This document shows, piece by piece, positions 1 to 17,141 of a DNA stretch of 21,071 bases. Both the position numbers and the translations under genes were made by a program. The DNA comes from a virus: positions 1-21,071 of IMG/VR virus record IMGVR_UViG_3300022929_000268; one strand, written 5' to 3'. The notes beneath the pieces were generated by a model. That model was given only the letters and a program-made list of their open reading frames with translations, made no database searches and was not told the DNA's origin. Positions within the stretch are counted from its first letter, which is position 1, and each line of letters starts with the position of its first letter.

Positions 1-3000
1 GCTGGAAGCGCTGGTGATGTACTTGATATTGAAGTCTCACCAATTCCCACTTTTGTTGGCGCTGGATCTAGCATCTTTATCGGCAATGAAACATTTAAAG
101 TTCTGAATAAGATCGCTACTCAGAACCTTTTGAGGGTAGAAAGAGATGGCACTGGAATCAGCACCACAGGTGTTGCAGTAACATTCCTACCAAATCAATT
201 CACAATTTCCCTGACTACAGATGATTTTGAATCTTCTAAGCAAGATACAATCTTCTTCAATCCATCTGAGCAAGTCAGCCTTGCCGCTACGGCAGGTATT
301 AGTTCTACTCTGACATATACTCAGGGTGGTATCACCACAGAAAGAGATGTACCTGCTCAAGCAATCTATATTCCAAATCACCCATTCAAGACTAATCAGA
401 GCGTCCTGCTGACCGCTCCTACCAGCGCTGACCCACCATTGATGGTCAGATCTGGATATGGTGATACACAGTTCCTCCCAGCGACTGTAGGCGGTGCTAC
501 GACGGTATTCGTAGTCAATATTGGTAAAGACCTTATTGGACTCAAAACCACTCGTGGTGGAGATCAACTTTACTTCCTCGAAAACGCAGCAAACACAGAT
601 CAATATACTTTTGTTTCTGAATTTGCAAATGTTACTGGTAGTGTACGCAAAGTTGAAACAACTGTATCAACAGCTGCAACTCATGGTCTTGACAATGGAG
701 ATAAGGTAACTTTCACTGTTAAACCTGAGGGTAACTTTGGTATTGGTAATTCCACTGATATCAATCTCTCATATAACACTCTTACTGAAAGTGTCATTGT
801 TAATAACATTGGGTTCAATTCAACTGGAATCAATACTTCTACTAACAGAATTACGCTTGTTAATCATGGACTTGAAACTGGTGACAAGGTTGTCTATGAC
901 GCTGTAGAAGTTGCAACTGGTCTTGTTGCTGGTGCATACTTTGTCTTTAAAGTTGACGATAATAATTTCAGTCTCGCACAAAGTTATGTTGATCTGATCA
1001 ACAATCCTCCCAGACTCGTTGATATGACTGGGATTGGAGCAACTCACACAATTGGACAGATCAATCCACAGATTCCTGTAACTAGAAATAAGAGTCTTGT
1101 ATTTGATACTAGTGACAGTTCTCTAACTGGTTTCAAACTCAAGTTCTTCTACGATAAAGAATTTAACAATCCTGTAGTTTCTGTAGCTAGCAGCGCTATC
1201 TTTAATATCCAAGAAACTGGTGTACCAGGTACAACTGGTGTTACTACCGTTGGATTCAGTTCTGCATGGCCAACTAAGTTGTACTACAACCTTGAGAAGA
1301 CTGGATATCTGAGCACATCTGATAACTCAGTTTCTTCTTATAATGAAATCAATTACTTTGATAGTAAGTATAACGGAACATTCACTGTAGTTGGTGTTGG
1401 ATCCACTGTTTTCACTGTTTCTCTGGTAGATGAACCTGAAGAAACAAGATATCTTCAAAGTGACTGTGCTGTTCTCAAGTATTCCACAACTTCTGGCACA
1501 GCTAACGGTGGTATTTCCAGAACTAGAATTGTTTCTCCTGGTTTTGGATTTGAAACTAGACCCGACTTTGTTGGTGTTGGAACAACCTCTAACGGTATCA
1601 ATGCAATTCTCGAAACAGAGTCAACAACAATTGGTCAGATTCTTTCTACTAGAGTTGCTAACCAAGGATTTGATTATCCCAGTGATAAGACACTGACACC
1701 TGCCGCACTGATTCCTTCTTGGTCTCAGATTGAAGAGAACTTTACCGTCAGCGACGGTGGCATTGATGTTCTCAGTGGTGGTCAAGGATTTAGTGGTCCA
1801 CCTATTCTGACTCTTGTCAATAGTTTGACAGGTGAGGAAGCTGGTGGCGGATCATACATCCCCGTGATGAATGAAAACTCTATCAATGGCGTTGAAGTAA
1901 TTAAGCAACCATCTGGTATTGCAGGTGTTGCTCATACTCTGTATACACTCAATAATACCAATGGTATTGTTATTACAAGTGTTGATAGTGTTCCTACAGG
2001 TATTGTAACTTGCACTATTCAAACACCCGTTCTTGGATTCACAACTTCTCCAATTCTAATTGGCGATAAGGTCTTTGTGGATGGTATTGGTAACTATGAT
2101 GGAGATGGTTTTGATGGGCATAATTCTAAGGATCATAAGTTTAACTTCTTCACTGTTCAAAATGTAAATGCATCAGTCAATCCAGTAACAGTAACATATA
2201 GTCTTGCTGGTATTGCAACTCAATCTGTTGGTACGGCTGTGACCAACACAAACAATCTAGCATCTATGGTTAAGGTGCAAGATTATCCAACTTTTGATGT
2301 TACCGTCTCTCGTGTTGAATTTGCTCTCAATCAGAGTATGCAAGTCAGCACTGGTGGTGCATTCTTTAATACTGATCTTGTTGTTACCAAGTCTGTTGGT
2401 GATGTCCTGAAACTGAAGGGAACTTACGAACTTAAGGTTGGTGATAAACTTCGTGGTGTATCTGATGGATTCATCTGCACCATTGTTAAGCATGAGAGCT
2501 ATGAGGGTGTATTTAAAGTAAGACATGACGTTCAACAGTCATTTGGTTGGTCTGACAAGATTGGATTTACCAATGATGATCTGTCTGTTCTGCCTGATAA
2601 CGATTACTTCCAGAACCTATCCTACACCGTTAAGACTCCTTTAGAGTGGAAGGATGCTTCTGGTCCTATGAACCGTCTTCTTCACTCCTCTGGAATGAAG
2701 AACTTTGTGGACATGGAGATCACTTCTCCCGTAAACGCAGCTGCTCCTGTCGGTATTCAATCTCACATAGTTACACAGGATATTAGACTGGACTATGTTG
2801 CAGAACTGAGAGCAGATCAAATCAATGCATTTGACTTGGCTGTTGATACAGATGTCACCGCCAATGTATCTCCTGCTATTGAATTTGCAAACAAAAAACT
2901 TTCTTCTTTCATCAAGTGTGTAACAAATAGAGTTCTGTTGCTTGATGATATTTCCAGACAATTCTCCAGTGAAGAACTTAACGATTCTGTAAATCAGACT

Positions 3001-6000
3001 CTCGTAACTTATCCCACCAATGTTCCCACACAAAGGATCTTGGTTCTTTCTAAGGATACTCGCAACCCAGTCAGTTACCAATTCAATGAGTTCATTCTCA
3101 TGAATACTCTTGAGGGTGCATATATCTTGGAGAAGGGACAGTCTACAAGCAATGGTGAAATTGTAACTATTGATACTACAATTGATCCTGTAGAAAACAC
3201 CATTGACGTTAATGCTTCTCCTGTCAGAACAGATATTGATTATGAGTTCAAAGTTGTTCGCCAACTTTATGGATCTTCCATCGGAGTAGGCACTCTAAGC
3301 GTTGGTATTGCCTCTGTAACAGGAGTAACAACATCTGTAGGTGCTGCGACAACTACAACTCTGTTTGACGCTGCTGCGGTTGATCTGGAAGGATTTACTG
3401 CATCTGTGTCCATCATTAGAAATAGCGATCAATATGGAAACTATCATGAAGTAGTTGCTGATCGTGGAAATGGTGATGATGTATCCATGGCTGAATTTGG
3501 TTTCGATACTGGATACAGCGAAAGTGGAATCACCACAGCATTCATTGGCACATTCAGATCTTATATTGAGAGTGGTAGACTTAAACTTGATTATACAAAC
3601 AATGGTGACGAAACTATTGACGCAAAGGTCAGAATTGTAGGACTGCATAAAGCAGGAGCTGGTGTTGGCACTGCATCATTCAAACTGACTAACCAATCTG
3701 AAGGATCTGAGAGATCTGCAAGATATGAAAGTAGCGATGTAACTGATTCTCACATTGCTGGTACTGGTTATGCTGCTACTGTTATCGGTGTAAGTTCTGA
3801 AACTCACCTTGCAGGTAAGTCTATCGTTAGAGTTGCTATCGGACAAAGTGTCAATGTTTCTCAACTGATCTTTAGTGGTGATTATCTTACCAGTCAAACT
3901 GAACTGACCGAATATCCTCAACTGACTATTGCTGATACTCCTGACGAGGTTGGCCTTGGTACATTTGGAACTCGTTATAATGGAAGCAATCTTGAAGTTA
4001 TGTTCTACCCAGGTGTCACCTCTGGTGTCGCCACAATCACTGGTTATCATGAACTCTTCTACAGAGATCAAGATGCTAACGCTGATGCTGTTAACAACAT
4101 CACATATAATGTTGGTATTGATGAATATGTTGAAGATAGTTTTACAACTGGTGATAAGTTAGACTTTGAACTGACAAGTGACGGATTCCCTGTTTACGCT
4201 CATGTATTCAATCCAAATACTGCTTCTGTTCTCGATCCAGCAACAGGTATCTTCACTATTAAGAATCACTTCCTGAACACAGGACAAGACCTGGTTTATA
4301 CACCAGAGAGCACAATCATTGGTGTTTCATCTGTATCTGTAGGTATTGGATCAACTCTTGTTGGTGGTGGATTTGGTACAGGTGATGCTATTGCTGGATT
4401 CAACACGGTATCCGGCCTCAGTACAACCTCTGGTATGGTTGTTGGTCAACTGTTCCGTGGACCAGGACTTTCTCCAGAAACTCCAACCACATTTGTTGTT
4501 GGACTTGGTAACAGCGTTACATGGTTCACTGCAAACAGTGATGGAACTAAGGTTTTGACTGGTGTTGGAAACACAGTAGTCTTAGAACTTAACGAAACCA
4601 TTGAAAGTGATCATGATTACACTGGATTTGGTACTATCACAAATATTGGATTCAACTCGATTACTGTTTCCAATAATGTCCCAGCTGGTGTTGGTAGTGT
4701 CTATCACTCCACTAGACTGAGACCTTCCGTTACCATTGGACCACCCGTACAAGTTGGTGTTACTACATTCCGTCAACAGTATAGATCTGGTATTAATACC
4801 GACACTATGCCAGAGAATGTTTATGCAATTAAACTGACTGAAGATACATTCAAACTGGCAACTAACGAGGCTTTTGCAAATGCTGGAATTGGTGTTACAT
4901 TCACAAGTCTTGGTAGTGGTAATGCTCACGTCCTTGATACTACTAAGAAACTTGAGAAGTCTCTGATTACGCTGGATGGTATCAACCAAGCACCTATTAC
5001 CGGAGCAGATCTTTCGTTTGAACTTAGACAGTCTCTGGGTCTTGGACAAACTTCATTCCCCATAAGCGGTATTGCTTCTGTTCAACCAGGAGATTTGATG
5101 AAGGTTGGTGCAGAAATCATGACCATCAACAACGTTGGTCTTGGAACAACTGCTGGTGATATCTCTGGTATCGGTACATTTACCGTTGTCAATGTAACTA
5201 GAGGTGCTGTTGGAACTGCAGTATCATCTAAGACTGACGGAGATAATATAGAAATCTACAGAGGTTCTTACAACATCGTAAGAAACAAGATTCACTTCAC
5301 AGAGGCTCCTGCAGGTGCTGGAACAGATGAAACTGTTGATGAAAAGAATCTCACAATTCAAAATGCCAAGTTCGGTGGACGAACATTCTTGAGAAAGAAT
5401 TATCAGAAGAATGCTCTGTTTGTTGATATCTCCAATCAATTCACTGGTCTTGCAAGAACCTTCACTCTGGTCACAGAGGGTGATGCTAATGTTGGTTTTG
5501 AAACAGGATCTGGTGTTCTGTTCCTGAACGGTATCTTCCAGGCTCCTACAACTGCTAACAATACAGAAAATGCCTATGAGACTATCTCAAGTCCTGTAGG
5601 TGTCACGAGCGCACAATTCAATGGCGTAAGACTCCTAGATGGTTCTCCTTATATTGATGAGGATGATGTAAACCAGAACCAGATTCCTAGAGGCGGTCTG
5701 ATCGTCTCCTTGGGTAGCACAGGTGGTAAGGGTATTGCTCCTCTGGTAGGTGCAAAATTCAGAGCAGTTCTTAGTGAAGGTGGTGGTATCTCACAGGCTG
5801 TTGGTGTTGGCACAACTCTTGGTAGACCAGGACTTGGAATCGTCACAGCGTCTTATAATGAATCCACTGGTATCATGGAAGTTGAGACGAACACTCCCCA
5901 TAAGTTCGTAGGGACAGGTGAAAATGTCTACATGATTGGCCTTGAGTTCTCTTGTTCTACTGAGCACGCAGGAGTTACAACAACAATCTTCCCAGATGGA

Positions 6001-8472
6001 TCACAACCTGGTGGATATGTCTTTGAAGTAACTGGTGTTGGATCAACTACCATCTTCAGAGCAGACGTTGGAATCTGCACTATTCCTCATGTCTATGAAG
6101 GATCTGGTGAGGTATTCAAGTTTGATACTGAGATCAACACTGGATCTGGATACAGAGAACCAGTTGCCATCGCGATTACAGATCCTGGATATGTACATAG
6201 ATTTGTAAGTGCTGAAGATGATTCCATCTCTGTAACTTCTTTCACAGGATCAACTCTGACTCCTACGAATGCAACTTATGAACCCACAACTGGTGAGTTT
6301 ATTCTTACAATTCCAGACCATGGATTGACAACTTCAGATAGCATCGGTATTAAGACTGGATCTATCGTATTCACATGTGATTCTGATAACTTTGCTGATA
6401 AGCAATCTTATCCAAGAGCAACTGACCCAATTGCCGGTGTCATTACTCCTGTCACATCTTACACATCTGGTAGTATTACTGTTAATGTTGGCACTAACGC
6501 TGGATTTAACGCTGTTGCCATTGCAACCGTTGGTGCTGGTGGAACACTGCATGTAACTGTTTCGGCTGCTGGAACAGGATATGTAAATCCCCAGTTCATT
6601 ATTCCTGATCCCTCTTACTCTAATCTTCCTATTGAAGGTATTTCAAGATTGGGTGAGGGAGCAACAACTGAAACTGGATTTGGTGCAAGAATCACTTGTG
6701 AAGTTGGAGCTGGTCAAACTAATGTAATGAGTGAGCATCATTTCGTTACTGGATTCAAACTTGATAATCGTGGTTATGCATTCAGAAAAGGTGATGTCTT
6801 CAGACCTGTAGGACTTGTAACTGCAGTGGGTGTTGGAGCAACTAACTTTGAAGATTTTGAACTGACTGTTCTCGAAACCTTCACAGATTCCTTCTCTTCT
6901 TGGCAGTTTGGTGAACTTGATTATATTGACAGCATCAGAGATCTCCAGAATGGACTCAGAAGGAGATTCCCACTGAGACAGAACTCTCAGTTGATCAGTT
7001 TCCAGAAAGATCCAACTGTCACTGCTTCTTCTCAACTTGATCTGAAGAATGTACTTGTTATCTTCATTGACGGTGTAATTCAGATTCCTGGTGAGGCCTA
7101 TGAGTTTGATGGTGGAACCAGCGTAGTCTTTACTGAACCACCTTCAAATACCTCAGAAGTTGACATATTCTTCTACAGAGGAACATCTGGAGATGATAGT
7201 TTCCAAGCGTCTGTTCCTGAGACAATTAAGAAGGGTGACTCTGTAACACTCAATAAGAAAGATGGTGATGATAATACCGAGACTCAAGCAAAGAGACTCG
7301 TTAGCGATGTTGCTTCTTCTGACAAGATTAACACCACAATATACAGTGCTCAAGGTGTAAATGATGAAGTCTTTAGACCTCTCGATTGGAGAAAGCAAAA
7401 GGCTGATAAACTGATCAATAGTGAAATCGTTACTAAGGTCAGAGATTCTATCGAACCTCAGATCTATCCTGTCGCTAGATTGATTGGTGATATTTCTGAT
7501 GGAGACACTGATTTATTTGTAGATAGTGTAAGATTCTTCCAATATGAAGAATATGCTGCTGGCGCACCAGCAAGCAACAACATTCAAGTTGATGCATTTA
7601 TTATTGATGGTACAGAAAACGTTGGTGCCGCAATAACTGCTGTTGTTGGAAGTGACACCACTTTAACATTCGATGTTACTTCTGGTGGATCAGGATATGC
7701 GGGTACATCTGTAACCTTGGGTATTGCTGCTCCTCCTAGAGTTGACAACGCTAAATATGGAATCGTAGGTGTTGGCACCACAGCTATTGCTAGAGGTATC
7801 CTTACTAACGGAGTTATCACTAGTGTTACAATTGATAACGCTGGTGGTGGATACAATGTCGATGCACCTCCTCAGGTTATTGTTACTGACAATGCAGTTA
7901 AGACAGATACCATTGACAACTCTGACATTATTATTGGTTATGTCGGTGTAATCACTGGCATCTCTACTACTGGCGGTGGTTCTGATCCAACAAGCATTGT
8001 CTTTGAAACAGATCTTACAGACTCCATCGTATCCACTGCTGAACTCGATACATTGATTGCTGGATATCCAATTTATGTTTATGACACTACTGTAGGTCAC
8101 GGTGTAACGGCTGTTCAAGGCACTACTGGTTCAACATCCCTCGATGACATGATCGTCGGTATTGGTACCACATTTGCTGATGCTGTTTACAAAGTCGCTG
8201 ACATTACTAGAAGTTCAAATGTTGGTGTGATTACATGTCACATTCAATCCACCACTAACACTGTGGGTCTTGCCTCAACTGGAACACGCGCTGTTCCTAT
8301 TGGAAGATTCTCATGGGGTAGACTTGGCCAAGTATCAAGATCTGCTTCACCTGTTGCCTTTGCAGTTTCCTCCTATACTGCCAATTCTGGATTATCAACT
8401 TATCCAATTGTTCAGAGAAGAGGATTTGGATTGAGAGACACTGGTGCTCTCAAGAAGCAAGTGGCAAATTAA
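1..8472 (+). CDS. Giant virion structural protein, 5'-partial, at the T4 gene 7 (baseplate wedge) position
   Basis: The frame is open from base 1, so the gene starts upstream; at least 2,823 residues are visible. An internal TTG at 130 is not a credible start because the preceding 43 codons read as the same kind of protein. The sequence is rich in Gly, Thr, Ser and Val with many GVG/GIG turns and no membrane segment, as expected for a beta-rich secreted-particle component. Landmarks (residues counted from base 1): repeated 'H-x-L/F-x-T-G-D' turn units near 126, 228, 289, 1423, 1967 and 2107; a more conserved-looking block with NRLLHSSGMKNF (about 891-902), an LRADQINAFD stretch (about 936) and NRVLLLDDISRQFS (about 976); two 'L/I-(N/D)-G-(I/V)-x-Q-x-P' fibre-type modules near 1810-1905 and 2314-2400; two GxGY modules near 2560-2630; and a GRFSWGRLGQ-type C-terminal end near 2768. 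It lies just before gp8, where T4 has gene 7 (about 1,030 residues). Orthology to gp7 is inferred from position only. It is far longer than T4 gp7. Confidence 0.85.
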   Translation, partial: AGSAGDVLDIEVSPIPTFVGAGSSIFIGNETFKVLNKIATQNLLRVERDGTGISTTGVAVTFLPNQFTISLTTDDFESSKQDTIFFNPSEQVSLAATAGISSTLTYTQGGITTERDVPAQAIYIPNHPFKTNQSVLLTAPTSADPPLMVRSGYGDTQFLPATVGGATTVFVVNIGKDLIGLKTTRGGDQLYFLENAANTDQYTFVSEFANVTGSVRKVETTVSTAATHGLDNGDKVTFTVKPEGNFGIGNSTDINLSYNTLTESVIVNNIGFNSTGINTSTNRITLVNHGLETGDKVVYDAVEVATGLVAGAYFVFKVDDNNFSLAQSYVDLINNPPRLVDMTGIGATHTIGQINPQIPVTRNKSLVFDTSDSSLTGFKLKFFYDKEFNNPVVSVASSAIFNIQETGVPGTTGVTTVGFSSAWPTKLYYNLEKTGYLSTSDNSVSSYNEINYFDSKYNGTFTVVGVGSTVFTVSLVDEPEETRYLQSDCAVLKYSTTSGTANGGISRTRIVSPGFGFETRPDFVGVGTTSNGINAILETESTTIGQILSTRVANQGFDYPSDKTLTPAALIPSWSQIEENFTVSDGGIDVLSGGQGFSGPPILTLVNSLTGEEAGGGSYIPVMNENSINGVEVIKQPSGIAGVAHTLYTLNNTNGIVITSVDSVPTGIVTCTIQTPVLGFTTSPILIGDKVFVDGIGNYDGDGFDGHNSKDHKFNFFTVQNVNASVNPVTVTYSLAGIATQSVGTAVTNTNNLASMVKVQDYPTFDVTVSRVEFALNQSMQVSTGGAFFNTDLVVTKSVGDVLKLKGTYELKVGDKLRGVSDGFICTIVKHESYEGVFKVRHDVQQSFGWSDKIGFTNDDLSVLPDNDYFQNLSYTVKTPLEWKDASGPMNRLLHSSGMKNFVDMEITSPVNAAAPVGIQSHIVTQDIRLDYVAELRADQINAFDLAVDTDVTANVSPAIEFANKKLSSFIKCVTNRVLLLDDISRQFSSEELNDSVNQTLVTYPTNVPTQRILVLSKDTRNPVSYQFNEFILMNTLEGAYILEKGQSTSNGEIVTIDTTIDPVENTIDVNASPVRTDIDYEFKVVRQLYGSSIGVGTLSVGIASVTGVTTSVGAATTTTLFDAAAVDLEGFTASVSIIRNSDQYGNYHEVVADRGNGDDVSMAEFGFDTGYSESGITTAFIGTFRSYIESGRLKLDYTNNGDETIDAKVRIVGLHKAGAGVGTASFKLTNQSEGSERSARYESSDVTDSHIAGTGYAATVIGVSSETHLAGKSIVRVAIGQSVNVSQLIFSGDYLTSQTELTEYPQLTIADTPDEVGLGTFGTRYNGSNLEVMFYPGVTSGVATITGYHELFYRDQDANADAVNNITYNVGIDEYVEDSFTTGDKLDFELTSDGFPVYAHVFNPNTASVLDPATGIFTIKNHFLNTGQDLVYTPESTIIGVSSVSVGIGSTLVGGGFGTGDAIAGFNTVSGLSTTSGMVVGQLFRGPGLSPETPTTFVVGLGNSVTWFTANSDGTKVLTGVGNTVVLELNETIESDHDYTGFGTITNIGFNSITVSNNVPAGVGSVYHSTRLRPSVTIGPPVQVGVTTFRQQYRSGINTDTMPENVYAIKLTEDTFKLATNEAFANAGIGVTFTSLGSGNAHVLDTTKKLEKSLITLDGINQAPITGADLSFELRQSLGLGQTSFPISGIASVQPGDLMKVGAEIMTINNVGLGTTAGDISGIGTFTVVNVTRGAVGTAVSSKTDGDNIEIYRGSYNIVRNKIHFTEAPAGAGTDETVDEKNLTIQNAKFGGRTFLRKNYQKNALFVDISNQFTGLARTFTLVTEGDANVGFETGSGVLFLNGIFQAPTTANNTENAYETISSPVGVTSAQFNGVRLLDGSPYIDEDDVNQNQIPRGGLIVSLGSTGGKGIAPLVGAKFRAVLSEGGGISQAVGVGTTLGRPGLGIVTASYNESTGIMEVETNTPHKFVGTGENVYMIGLEFSCSTEHAGVTTTIFPDGSQPGGYVFEVTGVGSTTIFRADVGICTIPHVYEGSGEVFKFDTEINTGSGYREPVAIAITDPGYVHRFVSAEDDSISVTSFTGSTLTPTNATYEPTTGEFILTIPDHGLTTSDSIGIKTGSIVFTCDSDNFADKQSYPRATDPIAGVITPVTSYTSGSITVNVGTNAGFNAVAIATVGAGGTLHVTVSAAGTGYVNPQFIIPDPSYSNLPIEGISRLGEGATTETGFGARITCEVGAGQTNVMSEHHFVTGFKLDNRGYAFRKGDVFRPVGLVTAVGVGATNFEDFELTVLETFTDSFSSWQFGELDYIDSIRDLQNGLRRRFPLRQNSQLISFQKDPTVTASSQLDLKNVLVIFIDGVIQIPGEAYEFDGGTSVVFTEPPSNTSEVDIFFYRGTSGDDSFQASVPETIKKGDSVTLNKKDGDDNTETQAKRLVSDVASSDKINTTIYSAQGVNDEVFRPLDWRKQKADKLINSEIVTKVRDSIEPQIYPVARLIGDISDGDTDLFVDSVRFFQYEEYAAGAPASNNIQVDAFIIDGTENVGAAITAVVGSDTTLTFDVTSGGSGYAGTSVTLGIAAPPRVDNAKYGIVGVGTTAIARGILTNGVITSVTIDNAGGGYNVDAPPQVIVTDNAVKTDTIDNSDIIIGYVGVITGISTTGGGSDPTSIVFETDLTDSIVSTAELDTLIAGYPIYVYDTTVGHGVTAVQGTTGSTSLDDMIVGIGTTFADAVYKVADITRSSNVGVITCHIQSTTNTVGLASTGTRAVPIGRFSWGRLGQVSRSASPVAFAVSSYTANSGLSTYPIVQRRGFGLRDTGALKKQVAN

Positions 8473-8474
8473 AG

Positions 8475-8482
8475 TATAAATA
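8475..8482 (+). promoter_or_regulatory. T4-type late promoter box TATAAATA in front of gp8
   Basis: TATAAATA begins two bases after the stop codon of the giant gene, in the 34-base gap before gp8. This is an exact match to the T4 late promoter element, which is read by RNA polymerase carrying the phage sigma-like gp55 and clamp-linked gp33. Transcription would start about 6 bases downstream, near 8488, giving a leader of roughly 19 bases that just contains the ribosome binding site. The expected target is gp8 and the genes that follow. Confidence 0.8.
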
Positions 8483-8489
8483 TCAACAT

Positions 8490-8495
8490 AGGAAA
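8490..8495 (+). promoter_or_regulatory. Ribosome binding site for gp8 (AGGAAA)
   Basis: AGGAAA lies 11 bases before the ATG at 8507, in a short AT-rich leader. It supports this ATG as the gp8 start and sits almost at the predicted 5' end of the late transcript. Confidence 0.6.
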
Positions 8496-8506
8496 GCGAT
8501 TTAAAA

Positions 8507-10072
8507 ATGCCTGCGCTGGTAACCGATCAATTTAGAATCTTCAATGCTAACAATTTAGTTAGTTCAATTGAAGATACTAGTAACTCTTTCTATATCTTCC
8601 TCAGCTTGCCGAACCCGACTTCGCCTGCTTTGGGATATGGAAGGACTGATACTTGGAATACGTCAACTTCTGGAGCTCCCTCTCCTATTGACAATTTCAA
8701 TTATAACAATCACACCTATGATGTGATGTTGTTTGGTAAGAAGGTTACCTCTTCTAATGTAAGAAGACTTGTTCGTAAGGTTAACTGGGCTCAAGGCACC
8801 ACTTACGAAATGTATCGCCATGATTATAATGTGAACAATCCAGCACCGATCACAGGTGCTACAAGACTCTACGACGCACGCTATTATGTCGTCAACTCGG
8901 ACTTCAAAGTCTACATCTGCATCGACAACGGATCTAGCGGAACAAACACGAGTGGCAATGCTTCTCAAGACGAACCCACTTTCACTGACCTCGAGCCTTC
9001 AAAGGCTGGCGATTCAGGAGACGGGTATGTTTGGAAGTATCTCTATACCGTTGACCCATCGGACATTATCAAGTTTGATTCGGTAGAATATATTTCTGTT
9101 CCTGGTAACTGGAGTAGTTCTACAAATGCACAGATTCAATCTGTTAGAGAAAACGGAGATTCTGATTTAAATAATAACCAATTGAAAAAAGTCTATATCG
9201 AAGACCAAGGATTTGGTTATGGTATTGGTCTTGATAGAGAAGTTGATATTTTAGGTGATGGAACTGGTGGTAAGTGTGTTGTTAGCACTGATACCTCAGG
9301 TAGAATCATTGATTGTCAGATTTCTCAGGGTGGTAAAGGTTATTCTTACGGAATCGTTGACCTCGGACCATTACAAGGAAGCACACTTTCGAGACTTGCA
9401 AAACTGGTTCCGATTATTCCTCCTTCCAGAGGTCATGGTTATGATCTTTACAAAGAACTTGGATCTGACAAAGTTCTTATGTATGCTCGATTTGATGATT
9501 CGACAAAAGACTTCCCTGCTGACACTACGTTTGCACAGATTGGTCTAGTTAGAAATCCAACTTCTTTTGGATCTACAACAGTATTCACAGCAAACCAGTT
9601 CTCTAGTTTGAGAGCTCTCAAACTTTCTGGTAAGTCTGGAACCATTGCTGTTGGTGATGAGATTCGCCAAGTTGTTGGAACATCAACCGCTGTGGCATAT
9701 GTTGCATCATATGATACTGAGACTAGTGTTCTGAAGTATTTCCAAGACAGATCACTTTATTTCAGTCCTGTAACTGGCGATCAAAAAGACTATGTTGGTG
9801 TATCCAGTGAAGGTAAAGTTCTAGCTTTTGATTCTTCTGCGGAACCAGTTACAACAGTTTCTGGATTCTCTGGTAATATTGATACGAACTTCTCTGGTAT
9901 TACTACAATTATTAACAACAAGACCATCAATCTTGGCGTGAACTTCACTGATGGACTTGCCGATCCTGAAATAAATAAGAGGACGGGAGAGGTCTTGTAT
10001 CTGGATAACAGAACTGAGGTCACTCGCAACTCTCGCCAAAAAGAAGATATTAAGGTAATTCTGGAATTCTAA
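8507..10072 (+). CDS. gp8: Baseplate wedge subunit gp8, enlarged form
   Basis: This is the T4 gp8 family. In T4 gp8 is a dimer in each of the six wedges, bound to gp7, gp10 and gp6. Family signs seen here are an N-terminal VTDQFRIFNANN stretch matching the T4 'VTSKFR...NFYNS' start, a V-R-K-V-N-W segment at the place of T4 'IPRRDW', GDGYVWKYLY at residues 171-180 (T4 GDGYVWEYLF), a following EYISVPGNW, and a C-terminal GEVLYLDNR...IKVILEF (T4 GEMIYMENR...INILFTF). The protein has 521 residues against 334 in T4. The extra length lies between the GDGYVW region and the C-terminal strand: a GxGY glycine-rich module at about 225-287, then a 'VGDEIRQVVG...' module at about 375-430. The start is supported by the AGGAAA site and late promoter upstream. 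GC drops from 48% (8881-9060) to 32% (9121-9240), near where the insert begins. Confidence 0.93.
   Translation: MPALVTDQFRIFNANNLVSSIEDTSNSFYIFLSLPNPTSPALGYGRTDTWNTSTSGAPSPIDNFNYNNHTYDVMLFGKKVTSSNVRRLVRKVNWAQGTTYEMYRHDYNVNNPAPITGATRLYDARYYVVNSDFKVYICIDNGSSGTNTSGNASQDEPTFTDLEPSKAGDSGDGYVWKYLYTVDPSDIIKFDSVEYISVPGNWSSSTNAQIQSVRENGDSDLNNNQLKKVYIEDQGFGYGIGLDREVDILGDGTGGKCVVSTDTSGRIIDCQISQGGKGYSYGIVDLGPLQGSTLSRLAKLVPIIPPSRGHGYDLYKELGSDKVLMYARFDDSTKDFPADTTFAQIGLVRNPTSFGSTTVFTANQFSSLRALKLSGKSGTIAVGDEIRQVVGTSTAVAYVASYDTETSVLKYFQDRSLYFSPVTGDQKDYVGVSSEGKVLAFDSSAEPVTTVSGFSGNIDTNFSGITTIINNKTINLGVNFTDGLADPEINKRTGEVLYLDNRTEVTRNSRQKEDIKVILEF
9179..9371 (+). other. GxGY glycine-rich module inserted in gp8
   Basis: Residues about 225-287 of gp8 read as DQGFGYG...DGTGGKCVV...IIDCQISQGGKGYSYG. 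This pattern is a GxGY turn, then G-x-G-G-(K/A), a short 'I-x-x-x-x-I' strand and another GxGY. T4 gp8 has no counterpart. The same pattern is seen near the 3' end of the giant upstream gene (about 7680-7875) and in the downstream large gene (about 15465-15680). Confidence 0.65.
9970..9977 (+). promoter_or_regulatory. Possible internal late promoter box AATAAATA within gp8
   Basis: AATAAATA fits the relaxed NATAAATA late motif proposed for T4-like cyanophages. It lies 100 bases before the start of the large DUF4815-type gene and so could add transcripts of that gene. It is inside coding sequence (codons for E-I-N-K), so a chance match is quite possible. Confidence 0.3.
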
Positions 10073-10076
10073 GACG

Positions 10077-13000
10077 ATGCCACAAAAGACGAATCTGAAT
10101 GTTAGTCCTTACTATGATGACTTTGGCATTGATAAGGATTTTTATCGAGTTCTATTCAAGCCTGGATTTCCTATTCAATCCAGAGAACTGAACAATATTC
10201 AGTCTGTTCTGCAGAATCAGATTGAACAGTTTGGTAATCATATTTTTAAGGATGGTTCTGTCGTCATCCCTGGTGCGGCTTCGTTTGACAATCAATATTA
10301 CGCTGTAAAAATTGACCCCATTCACTTGGGTATTGATGTATCAGTTTACATCGATGATTTTATTGGCAAAACAATTAAGGGACAAACAACACAAGTTACT
10401 GCAACTGTTGTAAATGTCTTGAGTTCAACTGATTCTGAAGAGAATCAACTCACGATTTATGTAAAGTATAAAGAGTCTGGAGACGCTCTGAGTGTAGCTA
10501 GTTTCCAAGACGGAGAAATCCTGATCGCTCAGGAAGACGTAGTATATGGAAACACCACAATTACTGGTGGTTCTACTTTTGCTCAATGTATTGCTTCTGA
10601 CGCAACTGCAATTGGTTGTGCAGCTCACATTGATGCAGGCATCTACTTTGTCAGAGGCATCTTTGCTCAAGTTGCAAAGCAAACTCTGATCCTTGATCAA
10701 TATAGCAATCAACCAGAATACAGAGTTGGTCTCGATGTTATTGAGACTATCGTTACTGCAAAAGACGATCCATCACTTTATGACAATGCGAGAGGATTTT
10801 CTAATTTCGCTGCTCCTGGAGCAGATCGATTCAAAATCGAACTCAAACTCTCTAAGAAATCTATATCAGATAGAGACGACAAAACTTTTGTTGAGATTCT
10901 ACGACTTACAGAAGGAAGAGTCGAGAAGATCGGACTGAAGACGCAATATAATCTCATCAGAGATTACTTTGCAGAAAGAACTTATGATGAGTCTGGTGAC
11001 TACTCAGTAGAAGCATTTGATATCGGACTCAGAGATTCATTGAACGACCGTCAAGGAAATGGTGGTTTGTTCTATGATAATCAAACCACATATAGCGGTA
11101 ATAATCCTAGTGATGATATTGCATCACTTACCGTTGGACCTGGTAAGGCATATGTTAGAGGATTTGATATTGAAAACTTCGGAACAGAAGTTATTGATGT
11201 CGAAAAACCAAGGGATACAAAAGCAACTACAACTGCTGTTCCCTTCAACATGGGTAACATCCTTAAAGTTAACCATGTCGTAGGACAACCTGTAATCGCC
11301 CTGAACACGACTCAGGTAGTCAACCTATACAATACGCGAAAGACCACCACTGTCGCCTCTGCTGCTCCTACAGGAGGCACTCTGATCGGTCAAGCAAGAG
11401 TTTATGCTCTGAATGCCGATGAACAGAACTATGTTGGCAATGAAACTGTATTCAATCTACATCTGTTTGACGTACAGACTTATACACAGATCACACTGAA
11501 TGTAGCTGGAGATTCAGTAACCATCCCTGCAACCTCTTTCATTGAGGGTCTTAGCAGTGGCGCCACTGGTTACACCGTCAATGCTGCTACGACTGATAGA
11601 ACGCTCTCTCTTACCGAAGTAACTGGTAACTTCCAAGAAGGTGAGAATATTAGAATCAACGGATTGACTGTAAATCCCAGATCAATCATTAATATCAGAA
11701 CTTTCACTACTGCAGATATTCACTCCGTATATCAAGATACTTCTGCAGTATCTGGGTATTCCGTTGATTTCTCGGCTGATGTTGTAATGGCTTCATCTGG
11801 TCCTCTTCCTGGATTTGGACTTGGTGAGACTGTTATTTTCAGTAATAACGGCCCTACTGGATTAACTACAGTTCGAGCTCCTGGTAAAACTTTTACTGGT
11901 ATCTCAACAGATACTATTGTCAAATATACTGACACTAACAAAACTCAATCAACATTTGCAAGAGTCACAGACATATCTGCAAATGGTTTGGTAATGACTC
12001 TGGTTGGTGTTCTTACCGTAGGTAACATCTGCGATGGTGGTCTCCCTGCATCTGGAGCATCATTTGAGTTAGAAAGGAATCTTCCTCAATTTACCAATCC
12101 AGAAGATGCTTATCTCTTTGCTCCTATTGGTAAACCAAACGTTGGATCTGTAGATCTTGGCAGTTCACAGTTAGCAGTCAATCACCAATTTACTGGTGAA
12201 AGCACTGATGGCTCTGGAAGCATGGAAATTGATGTCTCCGCTTCTGGAATCACTAGTGCATTCTTTGAAGTATATGATCCCGATAGATACGTTATTTCTT
12301 ACAGTGGAGGTACACAAGCACCTCTATCTGCAGGTCAGTTTACTCTGACCAATGATTCATCAACTCTGACCATCACTGGTCTTGATGCATCACAATCTAA
12401 TGTTGTTGTCAATGCAACTCTCAAGAAGAGAGGAATCAAGAGTAAGATCAAGAATCTTGCTAAGAGTCAAAAAACTTTTGTAAGACTGTCCAAGTTTGAA
12501 AGTGCTGGCATCTCTACAGGTGTCAACAATGGATTGACTTACAACAAGTTCAATGGATTGAGAGTAGAAGACGAAGAAATCTCACTCAATACCGCTGATG
12601 CTATCAATATCGTAGCAATTCACCAATCCAAGGGTTCGGCTGATCCATCCTTTGATAGTCTTGTTTTCCAGACAGGTCTTGATCTGGATACAAATTCTGT
12701 TCTTGGTGAGTATCTGCTTGGTGGAACAAGTGGAGCACTTGCACAACTTGTCACAAGATCAAGTGCAACAACTGTAGAATTTGTCTATCTCAACTCTACA
12801 ACTTTCCAAGTTAACGAGGATGTCAAGTTCTTAGAATCAAATATTACTGGAACTGTCCAAACAGTAAATCTTGGATCTTATATTGATCTGACCGATAAGT
12901 ATAGTCTTGATACTGGTAACAGACAGCAGTTCTGCGACTTCTCCAGAATTAAGAGAAAGACTGGTAGACCTCCTGCTAATAAGAGGATGGTCATTGTCTT

Positions 13001-16000
13001 TGATAAGTACAATGTTCCTAGTGTAGATACTGGTGATATCTTCACTGTTCAATCTTATCAGGCATCACAATTTAAAGATGGTGTTCCCTCTTCTGAATAT
13101 TTTGACAGACAAACTGGCCAGTTCAGAGAAATTAGATTAACTGATACTCTTGATTTCAGACCTAGAGTAACTGATTTTAGTGTAACAACATCTTCACCAT
13201 TTGCCTTCACGAACAGATCTTTTGATGGATCTGGAAATACAACGACTTTGGTTCCCAAGTCTGGCGAAACCTCTATCGTTGATTACGAATATTATCAGGG
13301 TAGAAACGATCTTCTTGCTCTGGGTAAAGACGGTAAGTTCCAAGTTATCAAGGGTGCTCCTAGCGATAACCCAAGAACACCTACAAACGCAGAGGAGGCG
13401 ATGAATATCGCCACTATTGAATATCCTCCATACCTGTACAATGTACTGGATGCAAAGATTACTGAGATTGATAACAAGCGTTATACAATGCGCGACATTG
13501 GTGATCTTGATGATCGTCTCACAAACTTAGAACTTACAACTTCTCTGTCTCTTCTGGAACTGGATACATCCTCTTTCCAAGTAATTGATGCACAAGGCCT
13601 GTCTAGATTCAAGTCTGGATTCTTTGCAGATGACTTCAAGAATCAGGACTTCATTGACTATGGGATGGAAGACACTCGTATTACCGTAGACGAGGGATTC
13701 AACCATCTGATCGTTGAGCAAGACACAGTAACCATTCCTGTTCAGGTTGCAACTGCTAGCACTGCAGCTGATTCTCTGATTGATTACAGCGCTGATGTAG
13801 ATCTACTTGATTCCAATGTAGTTAAGAAGGGGAATAGAGTTCAACTTGCATACAATGAAGAAACTTACATTGAACAACCTCTTGCAACTAGAGTTGAAAA
13901 TGTAAACCCATTCAACTTGATCGAGTGGGTTGGTGCAATTACACTTACTCCTGCAATCGATAGTTGGGTAACCACTATTCGCAGAAGTGGTGGAAACAGA
14001 ATGATTCCAAACCCTGGACGCCGTGGACAGTCGTTCTCATCTACCTCTGTTTCTTCGGTCGGTGATCCTTGGATCAGATCTAGAAACGTTAAGAACCATA
14101 CCACTGGATTTAAGCCTTTCACCAGATATTATCACTTCCTTGATGGGGTTGGTGGTATCGATTGGATTCCAAAACTGATTGAGGTTACTCCTGTATCTGG
14201 AACCTTTGTTGTTGGAGAAACCGTTGATGGTTTCGACTCTGCAGGAAATAGAACAATTAGTTTCAGAGTAGCACAACAAAACCATAAGGAAGGTCCTTTC
14301 AATAATCCAACCAGAAAGTATCAAGTAAGTCCTTACGACAGAACACTCCTGATGAGTGCTCTCGATTCTTACAATAGTTCTTCTGTCCTACTTAATGTTG
14401 ACATTGATGCTCTTGCAGCACAGGCTGGTGGATCTTACTCTGGATTCATCACTCCTGGTGGTAGACTCATTGGTAGAACAAGTCAGGCACAAGCAACTAT
14501 CGATGATAGTCGTCTGGTAACTGATAACTGGGGTACTGTTATTGGATCATTCTTCTTCAGAAATCCAAACAGCACACCTGCACCTGCTCTCAGATTCCCA
14601 ACAGGAACTAAGACTTATAAGATGACTTCCAGCTCTACCAACGCAGAGCCTCTCCCCGGAAGTCTGCTGATCAGTTCTGCAGAAACTACCTACAGAGCAA
14701 CTGGTATTATCAGAACGGTAACCACAAGTTCTGTTACTTTCTATGATCCTCTGGCACAGTCCTTTACTACAGATTCTACAGGTGGATTTATCACTTCTGT
14801 AGATATCTTCATGGGTAACAAGGATACTGCTTCTCCTCTGGAGATTCAGTTGAGAACCATGGAACTGGGAACTCCCACAACAACTTTGGTTTCTGATGAT
14901 TCTAAGATTACTCTCGAACCAGACCAGGTAAACACCTCTAGAACTGCCGATGTACCCACTAGGGTTACATTCCCATCACCAATCTTTGTAGAACCCAATA
15001 CAGAGTACGCTATCGTCCTCCTGTGTCCTTCTTCGGACCAATATGAAGCCTGGGTCGCAAGAATGGGTGAAAAGACTGTCAATACGACAACCCTACCTAA
15101 TGTTGAGGGTGTCATCTATGCTAGACAGTATGGTGCTGGATCTCTGTTTAAGTCTCAAAATGGATCTATCTGGACTGCATCTCAGTATGAAGATATGGCA
15201 TTCAGAGTAAACAGAGCTAAGTTTACTTCCCAGAAAGGATCTGTATTCTTCTATAACCCAATTATTGATGAAGAGTCCAACATCATTGAAGGATTGCAAA
15301 ACAATTCTGTTACCACTCTTCCCAGAAAACTGACTGTTGGTATTACAACAATCGAAGATGATGCAATTAATAATATTCTGCGCATCGGTCAAAAGGTTGG
15401 AACCACTGGTGTAAGTACAGATATCACTGGATTCATTGAGCAATTTGGTGGTCCTATTGAAACACTGTCTGTAAGTGGAGTTGGTACAAACTATACTAAT
15501 GGAACTTACAACAATGTAACTCTGATCAATGAGTCTGGAGGTGGAACAGGAGCTACTGCATCGATCGTTGTATCAAACGGTCAGGTTAGCGGTGCTACAG
15601 TCTCCGCTGCTGCTACTGGTAATGGTTATGTTGTTGGCGATACCGTTGCTATTACAACATCAATGGTTGGTGGACGTGGTAGTGGTGGTCAGGTAACGAT
15701 CTCTGCCATCTACAACTCCGATACCATCTACGCGACTAATGTACAAGGTGAGCAGTTTACAGAAACTCAGAATCTTTACTGGTATCCTGATTCTGGAGAA
15801 GTTGGTGTCGCTATCACCAACATCCTGATTAGAAGCTCTTCTTTGACATCGAACTTGAATGAAGGGAATGTCTTTGAAATCGACAGTGATTCTCATGGTA
15901 ATGTAACTTCTGCAAACCATGTTTCTATCAGAGGACTTCAACCTGATACAGATCCTATCAAACTGCAGAGTGATCTTTCCGTAAGTGCCACTGCAATCTC

Positions 16001-17141
16001 TGTTGCAAGCACTGCTACCTTCACTGAGTTTGAAGGACTCACAACATTCAGAGGATATCTGAAGGTTGGATCTGAGATCATCTACTATGACAGCATTGGT
16101 GCTGGAAACCTTGGTATTGCAACCAGAGGTGTAGATAATACAACCGTTCAGACACACTCTGCTGGTGCTGATGTCTACAAGTATGAACTCAATGGCGTTT
16201 CGCTGACCAGAATTAACACTGATCATAAGATGCCTACAGACGCTGGACTGCAAGGTCTGAAGACATTTGACAAGTATTACCTGGAGGTCGATAGACCTGC
16301 TGGAAGAAAGACTGGCGAAGAGCAATTGTCCTTTGCTGATGAGAAGACTGCTGGTGGAAATGGTTCTTGGGCTTCCAAAAACATCCAGTTCAGTTCCATG
16401 GTTCCCAACATGGTGTTCACCACTCCTGGTGATGGAACTTCAATTAGTGCAAGTGTCAGAACTACTTCTGGTACCAGTCAGAGTGGAACAGAGGCATCCT
16501 TCGTAGATCAAGGATTTGAACCTATCCAACTCAATGAAGTTAACTTCTTCTCCGATCCTCGTATCGTTGCTGGTAGAGTTAACGAGACAACATATCTGGC
16601 TGAACTACCTAAGAGCAGATCCTTCACTCTCGCATTAAACCTTGAGAGTCTTAATCCTTACTATTCTCCTCAGGTAAGAACTGATATTACAAGTATTGTT
16701 CTTCAGAGAAATAGAATTGACGCTCCTGTTGGAGATTACTCCATCGATGGAAGAGTCAACAGCGTATCCAATGATCCTCACGCAAGTGTCTACATTGGCC
16801 CAAGGATTGAACTTGATAATCCTGCAACCTCACTGAAGGTTCTTGCGGGTGTCAACAGACCTCAGAGTAGCGATGTTAGAGTTCTCTACAGACTCTTCAG
16901 AACAGATTCTGGAGAAACTGATCCCACATTTGAATTGTTCCCTGGATTCTCTGTCGGTCTTCCCGATGGAACCCCTGATACCAGAATTGCTCCTGCCTTT
17001 GGTAATGAATTCCTTGAGCATGTTTATACAGCAGATGGTCTTGATAAGTTCAACGCTTTCCAAATCAAGATTGATTTCTCTGGTACAAACGAATCCACAC
17101 CTCCTTCACTCCAAGACCTTAGAGTAATTGCACTGGCATGA
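10077..17141 (+). CDS. Large baseplate/tail-fibre structural protein with N-terminal DUF4815-type domain
   Basis: This 2,354-residue virion protein starts four bases after gp8. The start is an ATG with only a weak upstream GGAA (10063-10066). The N-terminus (NVSPYYDDFGIDKDFYRVLFKPGFPIQSREL...Q is typical in sense, followed by LQNQIEQFGNHIFKDGSVVIPG) is characteristic of DUF4815 phage tail proteins. Further landmarks are a 'DFSRIKRKTGRPPANK...VFDKYNV...GDIFTVQSY...LTDTLDFRPRV' block at about 955-1035, a helical MRDIGDLDDRLTNLE segment near 1137-1151, DPLAQSF near 1557 opening a beta-sandwich that runs to the EAWVARMGE segment near 1660, a GxGY module at about 1797-1868, a 'VGSEIIYYD...TRGVDNTTVQTHSAG...NGVSLTRIN' module at about 1990-2048, and a C-terminal PPSLQDLRVIALA. 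In T4 this place is held by gp9/gp10, and no clear similarity to those is seen. A role at the baseplate rim or as a fibre anchor is inferred. Its stop overlaps the next start (ATGA). Confidence 0.88.
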   Translation: MPQKTNLNVSPYYDDFGIDKDFYRVLFKPGFPIQSRELNNIQSVLQNQIEQFGNHIFKDGSVVIPGAASFDNQYYAVKIDPIHLGIDVSVYIDDFIGKTIKGQTTQVTATVVNVLSSTDSEENQLTIYVKYKESGDALSVASFQDGEILIAQEDVVYGNTTITGGSTFAQCIASDATAIGCAAHIDAGIYFVRGIFAQVAKQTLILDQYSNQPEYRVGLDVIETIVTAKDDPSLYDNARGFSNFAAPGADRFKIELKLSKKSISDRDDKTFVEILRLTEGRVEKIGLKTQYNLIRDYFAERTYDESGDYSVEAFDIGLRDSLNDRQGNGGLFYDNQTTYSGNNPSDDIASLTVGPGKAYVRGFDIENFGTEVIDVEKPRDTKATTTAVPFNMGNILKVNHVVGQPVIALNTTQVVNLYNTRKTTTVASAAPTGGTLIGQARVYALNADEQNYVGNETVFNLHLFDVQTYTQITLNVAGDSVTIPATSFIEGLSSGATGYTVNAATTDRTLSLTEVTGNFQEGENIRINGLTVNPRSIINIRTFTTADIHSVYQDTSAVSGYSVDFSADVVMASSGPLPGFGLGETVIFSNNGPTGLTTVRAPGKTFTGISTDTIVKYTDTNKTQSTFARVTDISANGLVMTLVGVLTVGNICDGGLPASGASFELERNLPQFTNPEDAYLFAPIGKPNVGSVDLGSSQLAVNHQFTGESTDGSGSMEIDVSASGITSAFFEVYDPDRYVISYSGGTQAPLSAGQFTLTNDSSTLTITGLDASQSNVVVNATLKKRGIKSKIKNLAKSQKTFVRLSKFESAGISTGVNNGLTYNKFNGLRVEDEEISLNTADAINIVAIHQSKGSADPSFDSLVFQTGLDLDTNSVLGEYLLGGTSGALAQLVTRSSATTVEFVYLNSTTFQVNEDVKFLESNITGTVQTVNLGSYIDLTDKYSLDTGNRQQFCDFSRIKRKTGRPPANKRMVIVFDKYNVPSVDTGDIFTVQSYQASQFKDGVPSSEYFDRQTGQFREIRLTDTLDFRPRVTDFSVTTSSPFAFTNRSFDGSGNTTTLVPKSGETSIVDYEYYQGRNDLLALGKDGKFQVIKGAPSDNPRTPTNAEEAMNIATIEYPPYLYNVLDAKITEIDNKRYTMRDIGDLDDRLTNLELTTSLSLLELDTSSFQVIDAQGLSRFKSGFFADDFKNQDFIDYGMEDTRITVDEGFNHLIVEQDTVTIPVQVATASTAADSLIDYSADVDLLDSNVVKKGNRVQLAYNEETYIEQPLATRVENVNPFNLIEWVGAITLTPAIDSWVTTIRRSGGNRMIPNPGRRGQSFSSTSVSSVGDPWIRSRNVKNHTTGFKPFTRYYHFLDGVGGIDWIPKLIEVTPVSGTFVVGETVDGFDSAGNRTISFRVAQQNHKEGPFNNPTRKYQVSPYDRTLLMSALDSYNSSSVLLNVDIDALAAQAGGSYSGFITPGGRLIGRTSQAQATIDDSRLVTDNWGTVIGSFFFRNPNSTPAPALRFPTGTKTYKMTSSSTNAEPLPGSLLISSAETTYRATGIIRTVTTSSVTFYDPLAQSFTTDSTGGFITSVDIFMGNKDTASPLEIQLRTMELGTPTTTLVSDDSKITLEPDQVNTSRTADVPTRVTFPSPIFVEPNTEYAIVLLCPSSDQYEAWVARMGEKTVNTTTLPNVEGVIYARQYGAGSLFKSQNGSIWTASQYEDMAFRVNRAKFTSQKGSVFFYNPIIDEESNIIEGLQNNSVTTLPRKLTVGITTIEDDAINNILRIGQKVGTTGVSTDITGFIEQFGGPIETLSVSGVGTNYTNGTYNNVTLINESGGGTGATASIVVSNGQVSGATVSAAATGNGYVVGDTVAITTSMVGGRGSGGQVTISAIYNSDTIYATNVQGEQFTETQNLYWYPDSGEVGVAITNILIRSSSLTSNLNEGNVFEIDSDSHGNVTSANHVSIRGLQPDTDPIKLQSDLSVSATAISVASTATFTEFEGLTTFRGYLKVGSEIIYYDSIGAGNLGIATRGVDNTTVQTHSAGADVYKYELNGVSLTRINTDHKMPTDAGLQGLKTFDKYYLEVDRPAGRKTGEEQLSFADEKTAGGNGSWASKNIQFSSMVPNMVFTTPGDGTSISASVRTTSGTSQSGTEASFVDQGFEPIQLNEVNFFSDPRIVAGRVNETTYLAELPKSRSFTLALNLESLNPYYSPQVRTDITSIVLQRNRIDAPVGDYSIDGRVNSVSNDPHASVYIGPRIELDNPATSLKVLAGVNRPQSSDVRVLYRLFRTDSGETDPTFELFPGFSVGLPDGTPDTRIAPAFGNEFLEHVYTADGLDKFNAFQIKIDFSGTNESTPPSLQDLRVIALA
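15465..15680 (+). other. GxGY glycine-rich module in the large DUF4815-type gene
   Basis: Residues about 1797-1868 read VSGVGTNYTNGTYNNV...GGGTGATASIVVSNGQVSGATVS...GNGYVVGDTV. This is the same layout as the modules in gp8 and in the giant upstream gene: a glycine turn with aromatic residue, G-x-G-A-x-A, a beta strand, then G-x-G-Y. It sits between the DPLAQSF domain and the C-terminal modules. Confidence 0.6.

Follow-up and report, generated by a model that had tools for sequence, protein, structure and literature searches.

A recurrent GxGY beta module in virion proteins of T4-like phages and its possible kinship with domain I of the T4 sheath protein

Three virion genes and their module copies

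We describe a small protein module that occurs in three neighbouring virion genes of IMGVR_UViG_3300022929_000268, a virus fragment carrying the structural gene cluster of a marine T4-like cyanophage. The whole stretch that was analysed, hereafter called the window, is 21,071 bases long. The module spans about 65-80 residues in the order strand, GxGY, strand, GxGA with a beta hairpin, strand, GxGY, strand, and copies of it lie in a giant gene resembling gp7, in gp8 and in a gene of the DUF4815 type. The genes and copies are as follows, where aa denotes amino acid positions and iE the independent E-value of a profile match.

1..8472, plus strand: giant wedge gene of the gp7 type, its 5' end cut off by the window edge; match to PHROG 2885 (baseplate wedge subunit) with an E of 0
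8507..10072, plus strand: gp8 baseplate wedge gene; Pfam PF09215 at 1.4e-9, PHROG 438 at 1.5e-160
10077..17141, plus strand: DUF4815 virion gene; Pfam PF16075 at 1.2e-62, PHROG 358 at E 0
7666..7860, plus strand: module copy 1 (giant aa 2556-2620), GSGY at 7687-7698 and GGGY at 7843-7854
9170..9370, plus strand: module copy 2 (gp8 aa 222-288), GFGY at 9209-9220 and GKGY at 9332-9343
15444..15668, plus strand: module copy 3 (DUF4815 aa 1790-1864), GTNY at 15483-15494 and GNGY at 15618-15629
1501..1680, plus strand: additional, weaker copy within the giant gene (aa 501-560) with GFGF and GFDY; profile score 6.8 bits, iE 0.003
6535..6870, plus strand: additional, divergent copy within the giant gene (about aa 2179-2290), located by hhalign of the region aa 2166-2300

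The order of wedge gene, gp8 and DUF4815 homolog is kept in phages S-T4 and P-SSM2. The place of the giant gene, upstream of gp8, is held by gp7 in P-SSM2 and by a wedge gene in S-T4, where the gene in the gp6-gp8 interval measures 14,250 bases; T4 gene 7 measures about 3.1 kb.

A first-pass annotation of this DNA had proposed that a paired GxGY layout is shared by the three genes in a row. The pairs are present in the giant and gp8 copies, while the first site of the DUF4815 copy reads GTNY. Related segments do occur in all three genes, although three is an undercount, with further copies present in the giant gene. Among the other DUF4815 rows, the first site is GxGY in 9 of 11 and a GxGF or GTNY-type variant in the remaining two, and across 23 copies from the three families the glycine and tyrosine of both sites are invariant or nearly so. 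Strings alone are a poor guide to module copies in the DUF4815 protein, where a strict GxGY search found one site against 0.66 expected, which is chance level. Counts above chance were obtained for the giant gene (five strings) and for gp8 (four, two of them outside the module, at 9017 and 9431). Neither of these outlying gp8 strings was accepted as a module site, since that at 9017 lies inside the stretch matching T4 gp8 and the module profile stops before that at 9431. Also rejected was a giant-gene segment near 6142 (GSGY, aa 2011-2090), which reached at most 36% in hhalign with an alignment of only 6 sequences.

Kinship of the copies and spread of the module

An alignment of the three window segments alone is uninformative (3 invariant columns of 186), and orthologs are needed. 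Sets drawn from 80 IMG/VR loci around gp8 comprised 59 giant, 65 gp8 and 32 DUF4815 sequences, query included. Profile-profile comparison of these sets by hhalign gave 95.4% for copies 1 and 3, 93.9% for copies 2 and 3, and 80.0% for copies 1 and 2. Two other regions of the giant protein are linked to the same group: aa 486-620 scored 91.1% with copy 1, 93.4% with copy 2 and 1.9% with copy 3, and aa 2166-2300 scored 96.7%, 6.3% and 84.4%, respectively. With a single profile, the divergent copy in the latter region is seen at aa 2152-2196 with 2.2 bits and an iE of 0.083. As a null, the full-length ortholog alignments of the three proteins were cut into 140 tiles. Each of the three profiles ranked module tiles highest once its own tile was set aside, and with the giant profile no tile outside the modules and its own flank exceeded 37%.

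A profile of 20 relatives, with the window rows excluded, recovers DUF4815 aa 1790-1864 at 3.9e-18 (54.5 bits), gp8 aa 222-288 at 1e-16 (49.9 bits) and giant aa 2556-2620 at 2e-9 (26.6 bits), whereas 100 shuffled windows reached 6.4 bits at most. Because this profile includes orthologs of all three proteins, it establishes the membership of each copy and not the kinship between families. The strictest test across families leaves one family out of the profile at a time, again judged against the best of 100 shuffled windows. Under this regime gp8 scores 13.6 bits against 8.1 and DUF4815 scores 10.7 against 6.1, while the result for the giant protein is marginal (9.9 against 9.6); in each run the module is still the top match within the protein left out. 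Profiles made from one family are weak across families, with 10.8 bits from DUF4815 to gp8 (shuffles 9.5), 4.8 bits from gp8 to DUF4815 and 2.2 bits from giant to gp8. A phmmer search with the DUF4815 copy alone finds 86 matches in gp8 open reading frames (ORFs) at iE < 1e-3. At that threshold the forward ORF set yields 749 module domains, and the 3,496 reversed ORFs, identical to it in composition, yield none (best 0.12).

The first-pass annotation had named the absence of profile similarity beyond glycine content as the result that would undo its proposal. Such similarity is present in the hhalign comparisons, in the tile ranking and in the lack of reversed-ORF matches, and on these profile comparisons we consider the three segments to be related beyond composition. 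The link between the gp8 and DUF4815 copies is firm, the phmmer matches included. That of the giant copy is weaker though consistent, and its tie to gp8 relies on profile-profile comparison and on the DUF4815 copy as an intermediate.

The module reaches well past the three genes. A PHROG scan with 23 module sequences at E 0.01 touched 19 families, the modules' own included, and the others include head closure, tail fibre, several virion structural and several baseplate wedge families. Module-matching families include 460 and 3465 (head closure), 5342 (tail fibre) and 6005, 701, 4406 and 19630 (virion structural). We also ran a module profile, A2, against 12 phage records, hand-picked from gp8 listings except for T4, which was taken by accession, at the same E 0.01. 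Nine of the 12 records contained between 1 and 23 matches each, some of them overlapping or partial, such that the counts refer to matches and not to certain domains: 12 in S-T4, 9 in P-SSM2, 23 in Syn33, 15 in S-RIM44, 8 in ACG-2014f, 2 in BUCT-ZZ01, 1 in pf16, 1 in Rhizobium phage RHph_I1_18 and 4 in Stenotrophomonas phage Yut3. None was found at this threshold in T4, Aeromonas phage Aeh1 or Vibrio phage K491. The 12 matches of S-T4 are distributed over its gp7-like gene (four), head closure (three) and, with one each, gp8, the DUF4815-type gene, a hub-lysozyme, a tail fibre and a 'major tail' protein whose PHROGs include tail fibre families. One of the Yut3 matches falls in the tail sheath protein (locus L341, aa 238-301), the sole clear one among 12 sheath ORFs. 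In the fetched loci, 316 of 322 gp8 ORFs match at iE < 1e-3, as do 42 of 303 DUF4815 ORFs, few of which extend over the module slot, and 238 of the 2,871 remaining ORFs. Since most A2 rows were drawn from these loci, the first two counts are in part a product of construction.

Judging from these sequence matches, the module recurs as a building block in the virion proteins of T4-like and other contractile-tail phages. The idea that the trio is special is thus not sustained, given that the module is also found in neck, hub, fibre and sheath proteins. No convincing match was obtained when the 23 module sequences were scanned against Pfam and NCBIfam (the best unrelated Pfam entry had an E of 0.031), and none of them matched an Ig-like Pfam family, a result that is silent on fold. 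Sequence searches of solved structures reached E 0.15 at best, with antibody light chains first in both searches. In open-licence articles of PubMed Central (PMC), no description of the module was found by title or abstract start under the spellings GxGY and GGxGY, and the parts consulted of a sheath paper (PMC10966104) and a cyanophage genome paper (PMC3037559) hold nothing on it. We conclude that this is an old virion module, unnamed in the Pfam and NCBIfam versions searched, of which the trio represents three visible copies.

Inheritance and local change

Recent trading of modules within the cluster would make copies of the same genome resemble each other more than copies of different genomes. 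For the three principal pairs we observe no such excess: similarity is 51.9 within and 52.7 between genomes for giant and gp8 copies (68 loci, p 0.875), 72.8 and 71.3 for giant and DUF4815 copies (29 loci, p 0.176), and 68.3 and 67.0 for gp8 and DUF4815 copies (33 loci, p 0.21). A small same-genome excess does exist for the divergent giant copy, M5, when compared with M1 (60.4 versus 57.9, p 0.005) and with M3, the DUF4815 copy (59.5 versus 55.9, p 0.0065), and there is none between M5 and the gp8 copy (p 0.61). A window-like search supplied nearly all loci used for the giant and DUF4815 sites, and these p values are computed from related loci that were not thinned. When identical sequences are set aside, the nearest relative of every copy lies at its own site (275 of 275 copies, four sites). 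The earlier suggestion of exchange within the cluster therefore finds no support as a recent process. Given the lack of same-genome excess and the same-site relatives, the spread of the module among sites appears to be old on this scale, with each copy inherited in place.

Change within a site is visible. Among gp8 ORFs, 270 of 322 have one profile match, 46 have two to six and 6 have none. Of the 46 ORFs with several matches, 44 are among the 72 obtained from a search with Yut3 gp8, and tandem repeats are visible in them. Several distant gp8 homologs (L284, L286, L302 and others) display four to six overlapping matches, adjacent ones having a GxGY half in common; an example is the chain at aa 153-221, 199-260, 237-304, 274-341 and 322-381 of L302. 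Given this overlap, the gp8 stretch looks like a chain of half-units.

The DUF4815 slot varies in another manner. Among 86 ORFs in which both flanks are present, 32 carry the module, 53 carry a different beta segment, and one, from P-SSM2, is intermediate. The alternative segment is of similar length and has at most 16% profile similarity to the module. All 32 module-bearing ORFs derive from the window-like search or from S-T4, and the 53 derive from the Syn33-like search or from Syn33, such that the split follows clades and may reflect a single event.

The segment that occupies this slot in Syn33-like phages has its own counterparts in the window, where hhalign relates it to gp8 at about aa 368-413 (67.5%), to the DUF4815 protein at about aa 472-527 (84.5%) and to the giant protein at about aa 810-845 (74.9%). 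A second recurrent beta segment, with a pattern of approximately GxFxxGExVxG..SGA, can accordingly be traced at window positions of about 9608-9745, 11490-11657 and 2428-2535.

Predicted structure, possible kinship with gp18 and proposed function

An AlphaFold2 model of gp8, built from 37 aligned sequences, has a mean predicted local distance difference test (pLDDT) score of 83.3. Within it, the module scores 87-92 per ten-residue block over residues 231-290, with 72 for block 221-230, and its predicted strands are 228-233, 244-250, 256-261, 267-274 and 282-284. Two stretches of the window protein, aa 35-199 and aa 485-521, match T4 gp8 (E 0.0015 for the whole sequence), and the interval between them is 85 residues in T4 and 285 residues in the window protein. 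For the giant copy, a model based on 35 sequences has a pLDDT of 66.7 as a whole and of 71-92 by block in the module stretch, with one dip to 57. The two models, compared without superposition, have the same order of strands and motifs, and that of the giant copy is poor overall.

The gp8 model also contains a second inserted beta domain at about aa 367-453 (window 9605-9865). This predicted domain matches the barrels of aIF2-gamma and F1-ATPase and tail chains of phages JBD30, Chi and T5 (Z 5.0-6.4), and is perhaps a common barrel of tail proteins.

The most useful lead to function is provided by T4 gp18. Domain I of this sheath protein protrudes and binds the baseplate and the retracted long tail fibres, and the substitutions G106S, S175F and A178V inhibit fibre retraction (PMC3004832). 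Residues 226-306 of the gp8 model match gp18 98-188 with a Z of 5.7-6.1 and a root-mean-square deviation (rmsd) of 2.7-3.0 over 69-75 residues, with boundaries in agreement; a Z near 6 is weak when taken alone and falls short of the value that the tool recommends for a reliable match. Among the 50 entries listed, the domain-sized matches are three T4 gp18 entries and a tail/sheath chain of Klebsiella phage KP1. A profile of T4-type domain I, run on 3,496 ORFs, finds ORFs directly upstream of gp8 in L298, L300 and L303 (iE 1e-7 to 5.2e-7) and in L254, L255 and Yut3 (3.6e-5 to 4.2e-5); the best reversed control is 0.77. These bridging ORFs match the module profile as well (iE 1.7e-4 to 1e-3). 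The Yut3 ORF, which is flanked by a wedge gene and by gp8, has a match to the gp7 family at 1.8e-30, and its own family, PHROG 26741, matches T4 gp18 100-146 at E 4.8e-4. Taken together, the fold match, the bridging ORFs and PHROG 26741 point to gp18 domain I without settling the matter. Kinship between the module and this domain is supported but not proven by these profile matches and models.

Numerous observations weigh against this kinship or against the wider reading to which it belongs. A Z near 6 may mean merely a common arrangement, as the tool itself cautions. Fold searches with the giant model gave a Foldseek E of 1.2 and a VIA Z of 3.2 at best; the matches are weak (Z 2.2-3.2), with fibronectin best and mostly antibody-type sandwiches, and gp18 is not listed. 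The bridging ORFs are of two kinds with three loci each, and are not six independent cases. Direct hhalign comparison of domain I with the module families yields 0.5-49%, and in a ranking of domain I against tiles the best score is 70% over 19 columns, with non-module tiles mixed in from rank 6. The module profile scores 3.8 and 0.1 bits on gp18 alone and has no match in the T4 record at E 0.01. The copy in the Yut3 sheath is off the domain I position in a pairwise alignment with T4 gp18, and the second GxxY of T4 is found in 0 of the other 16 aligned sheaths. The register is also unsettled. L298 and the gp8 alignment place domain I on the module from its first GxGY, and the Yut3-type ORFs, T4 gp18 and the best tiles place the GSNY-type site on the second. 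One guess is that a chain of half-units would explain the two registers.

The glycine of the GSNY site might itself be one of the mutated residues. The T4 record has G, S and A at 107, 176 and 179, counting the first methionine. If the published numbering omits that methionine, all three mutated residues would fit, and G106 would be the GSNY glycine. This GxxY site is kept in some form by 16 of the 17 aligned sheaths. A separate peculiarity concerns residues 146-153 of T4 gp18 (L342), which read PTGKNYAK in T4 and PTAKIIAK in L344, L345 and L352 (98-99% identity). The difference between GKNY and AKII amounts to a one-base gain and a one-base loss about 10 bases apart. The GKNY string may be peculiar to T4 or may stem from an old sequencing error, and we do not count it as support for the gp18 link.

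Our overall reading is that a recurrent module, inherited in place and apparently related to gp18 domain I, most likely serves as a docking knob. We give this combined statement only a little better than an even chance (about 0.52). In this reading, the module would sit in loops of older core proteins and be passed on in place with each gene, forming an inserted, surface-exposed knob whose glycine loops might be offered for docking. By analogy with gp18 domain I, its partners could be adjacent components of the virion, among them tail fibres and proteins of the baseplate. Docking to virion parts, taken by itself, is the leading proposal for function, with indirect support from the T4 domain, and we hold it tentatively, at less than even odds; host adhesion and passive spacing compete with it seriously.

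The adhesin alternative, doubtful in our view although deserving attention, holds that the modules are weak adhesins, comparable to Ig-like decoration domains, that contact host surface sugars rather than virion partners. An adhesin role for additional, often Ig-like, domains of sheath proteins is proposed in the part of PMC9230969 consulted, the module is found in families of tail fibre and baseplate proteins, and weak similarity to fibronectin and antibody-type sandwiches is seen in the poor giant model. However, copies are present in head closure proteins of the neck too, the possible T4 relative binds virion parts, and no carbohydrate-binding family is among the Pfam matches of the 23 copies. 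To much the same degree, the modules might be passive spacers, which as stable beta folds of a generic kind would add length and stiffness to giant proteins and have no specific partner. This proposal draws on the one to six profile matches per gp8 ORF, often overlapping with a shared GxGY half, and on the tolerance of the DUF4815 slot for a different beta segment of similar length. The unsettled register, together with neighbours that share a GxGY half, strengthens it and slightly weakens the docking-knob reading. The near invariance of glycine and tyrosine at both sites goes beyond what a spacer needs, although a constraint of the fold could explain it.

Two further explanations both seem improbable. 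One holds that the three neighbouring genes exchange their modules, which would be mutual docking sites of exactly these proteins, as is suggested by the adjacency of the genes, two of which are wedge genes, and by the profile relation of their modules. Apart from the small same-genome excess of M5, against this idea are the even similarities among the three principal copies, the same-site nearest relatives, the presence of the module beyond the trio, and a DUF4815 slot that does without it in most ORFs with both flanks, whereas nearly all gp8 ORFs retain it. The other explanation is convergence, in which glycine-rich beta proteins acquire the same layout by chance or fold constraint, without common descent. 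The three window proteins do contain 8.5-10.7% glycine, and the giant copy barely exceeds shuffles when its family is left out. Opposed to this are the silence of the reversed ORFs and the finding that most remaining parts of the same proteins score unlike modules.

Returning to the docking-knob reading, a bolder version of it, which we consider unlikely, is that one ancestral knob with the fold of gp18 domain I was copied into most structural classes of T4-like marine virions (gp7, gp8, DUF4815 proteins, neck gp14, hub, fibres and sheath), where it would act as a common socket for contacts of fibres or wedges. If true, a shared docking code, and not a set of protein-specific interfaces, would wire the tail together. 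More immediately, the function of the giant virion proteins of marine T4-like phages is largely unknown, and the module profile, which finds copies across a genome, allows them to be divided into domains. Should the link with gp18 domain I prove right, the classical mutation G106S would point at the glycine loop of a module that is present in several copies per cyanophage, and the docking function would become testable.

Several known systems can be compared with the module. The matching PHROG families 460, 3465, 5342, 6005, 701, 4406 and 19630 are annotated as other virion parts, and the matched stretch is short relative to the length of each profile. Ig-like and other additional domains of sheath and tail proteins are likewise accessory beta domains set on a conserved core, and according to the part of PMC9230969 consulted such domains increase with genome size. 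The module differs from these in that its 23 members have no convincing Pfam or NCBIfam match and no solved chain better than E 0.15. With respect to T4 gp8 (PDB 1N7Z, PF09215), the predicted window protein keeps the core (Z 20.1, rmsd 3.8 over 277 residues) and is about 200 residues longer between the matched stretches, where it houses both the GxGY module and the second beta domain. T4 gp18 domain I (PDB 3FO8, 3FOA) is also a small beta domain inserted in another domain, has GSNY followed by GD, and is matched over gp18 98-188, at the modest Z given above, by the gp8 model at 226-306. Domain I is described as a six-stranded barrel with a helix (PMC3004832), whereas the gp8 module is predicted to have five or six strands, with no more helix than a turn of three residues at 287-289.

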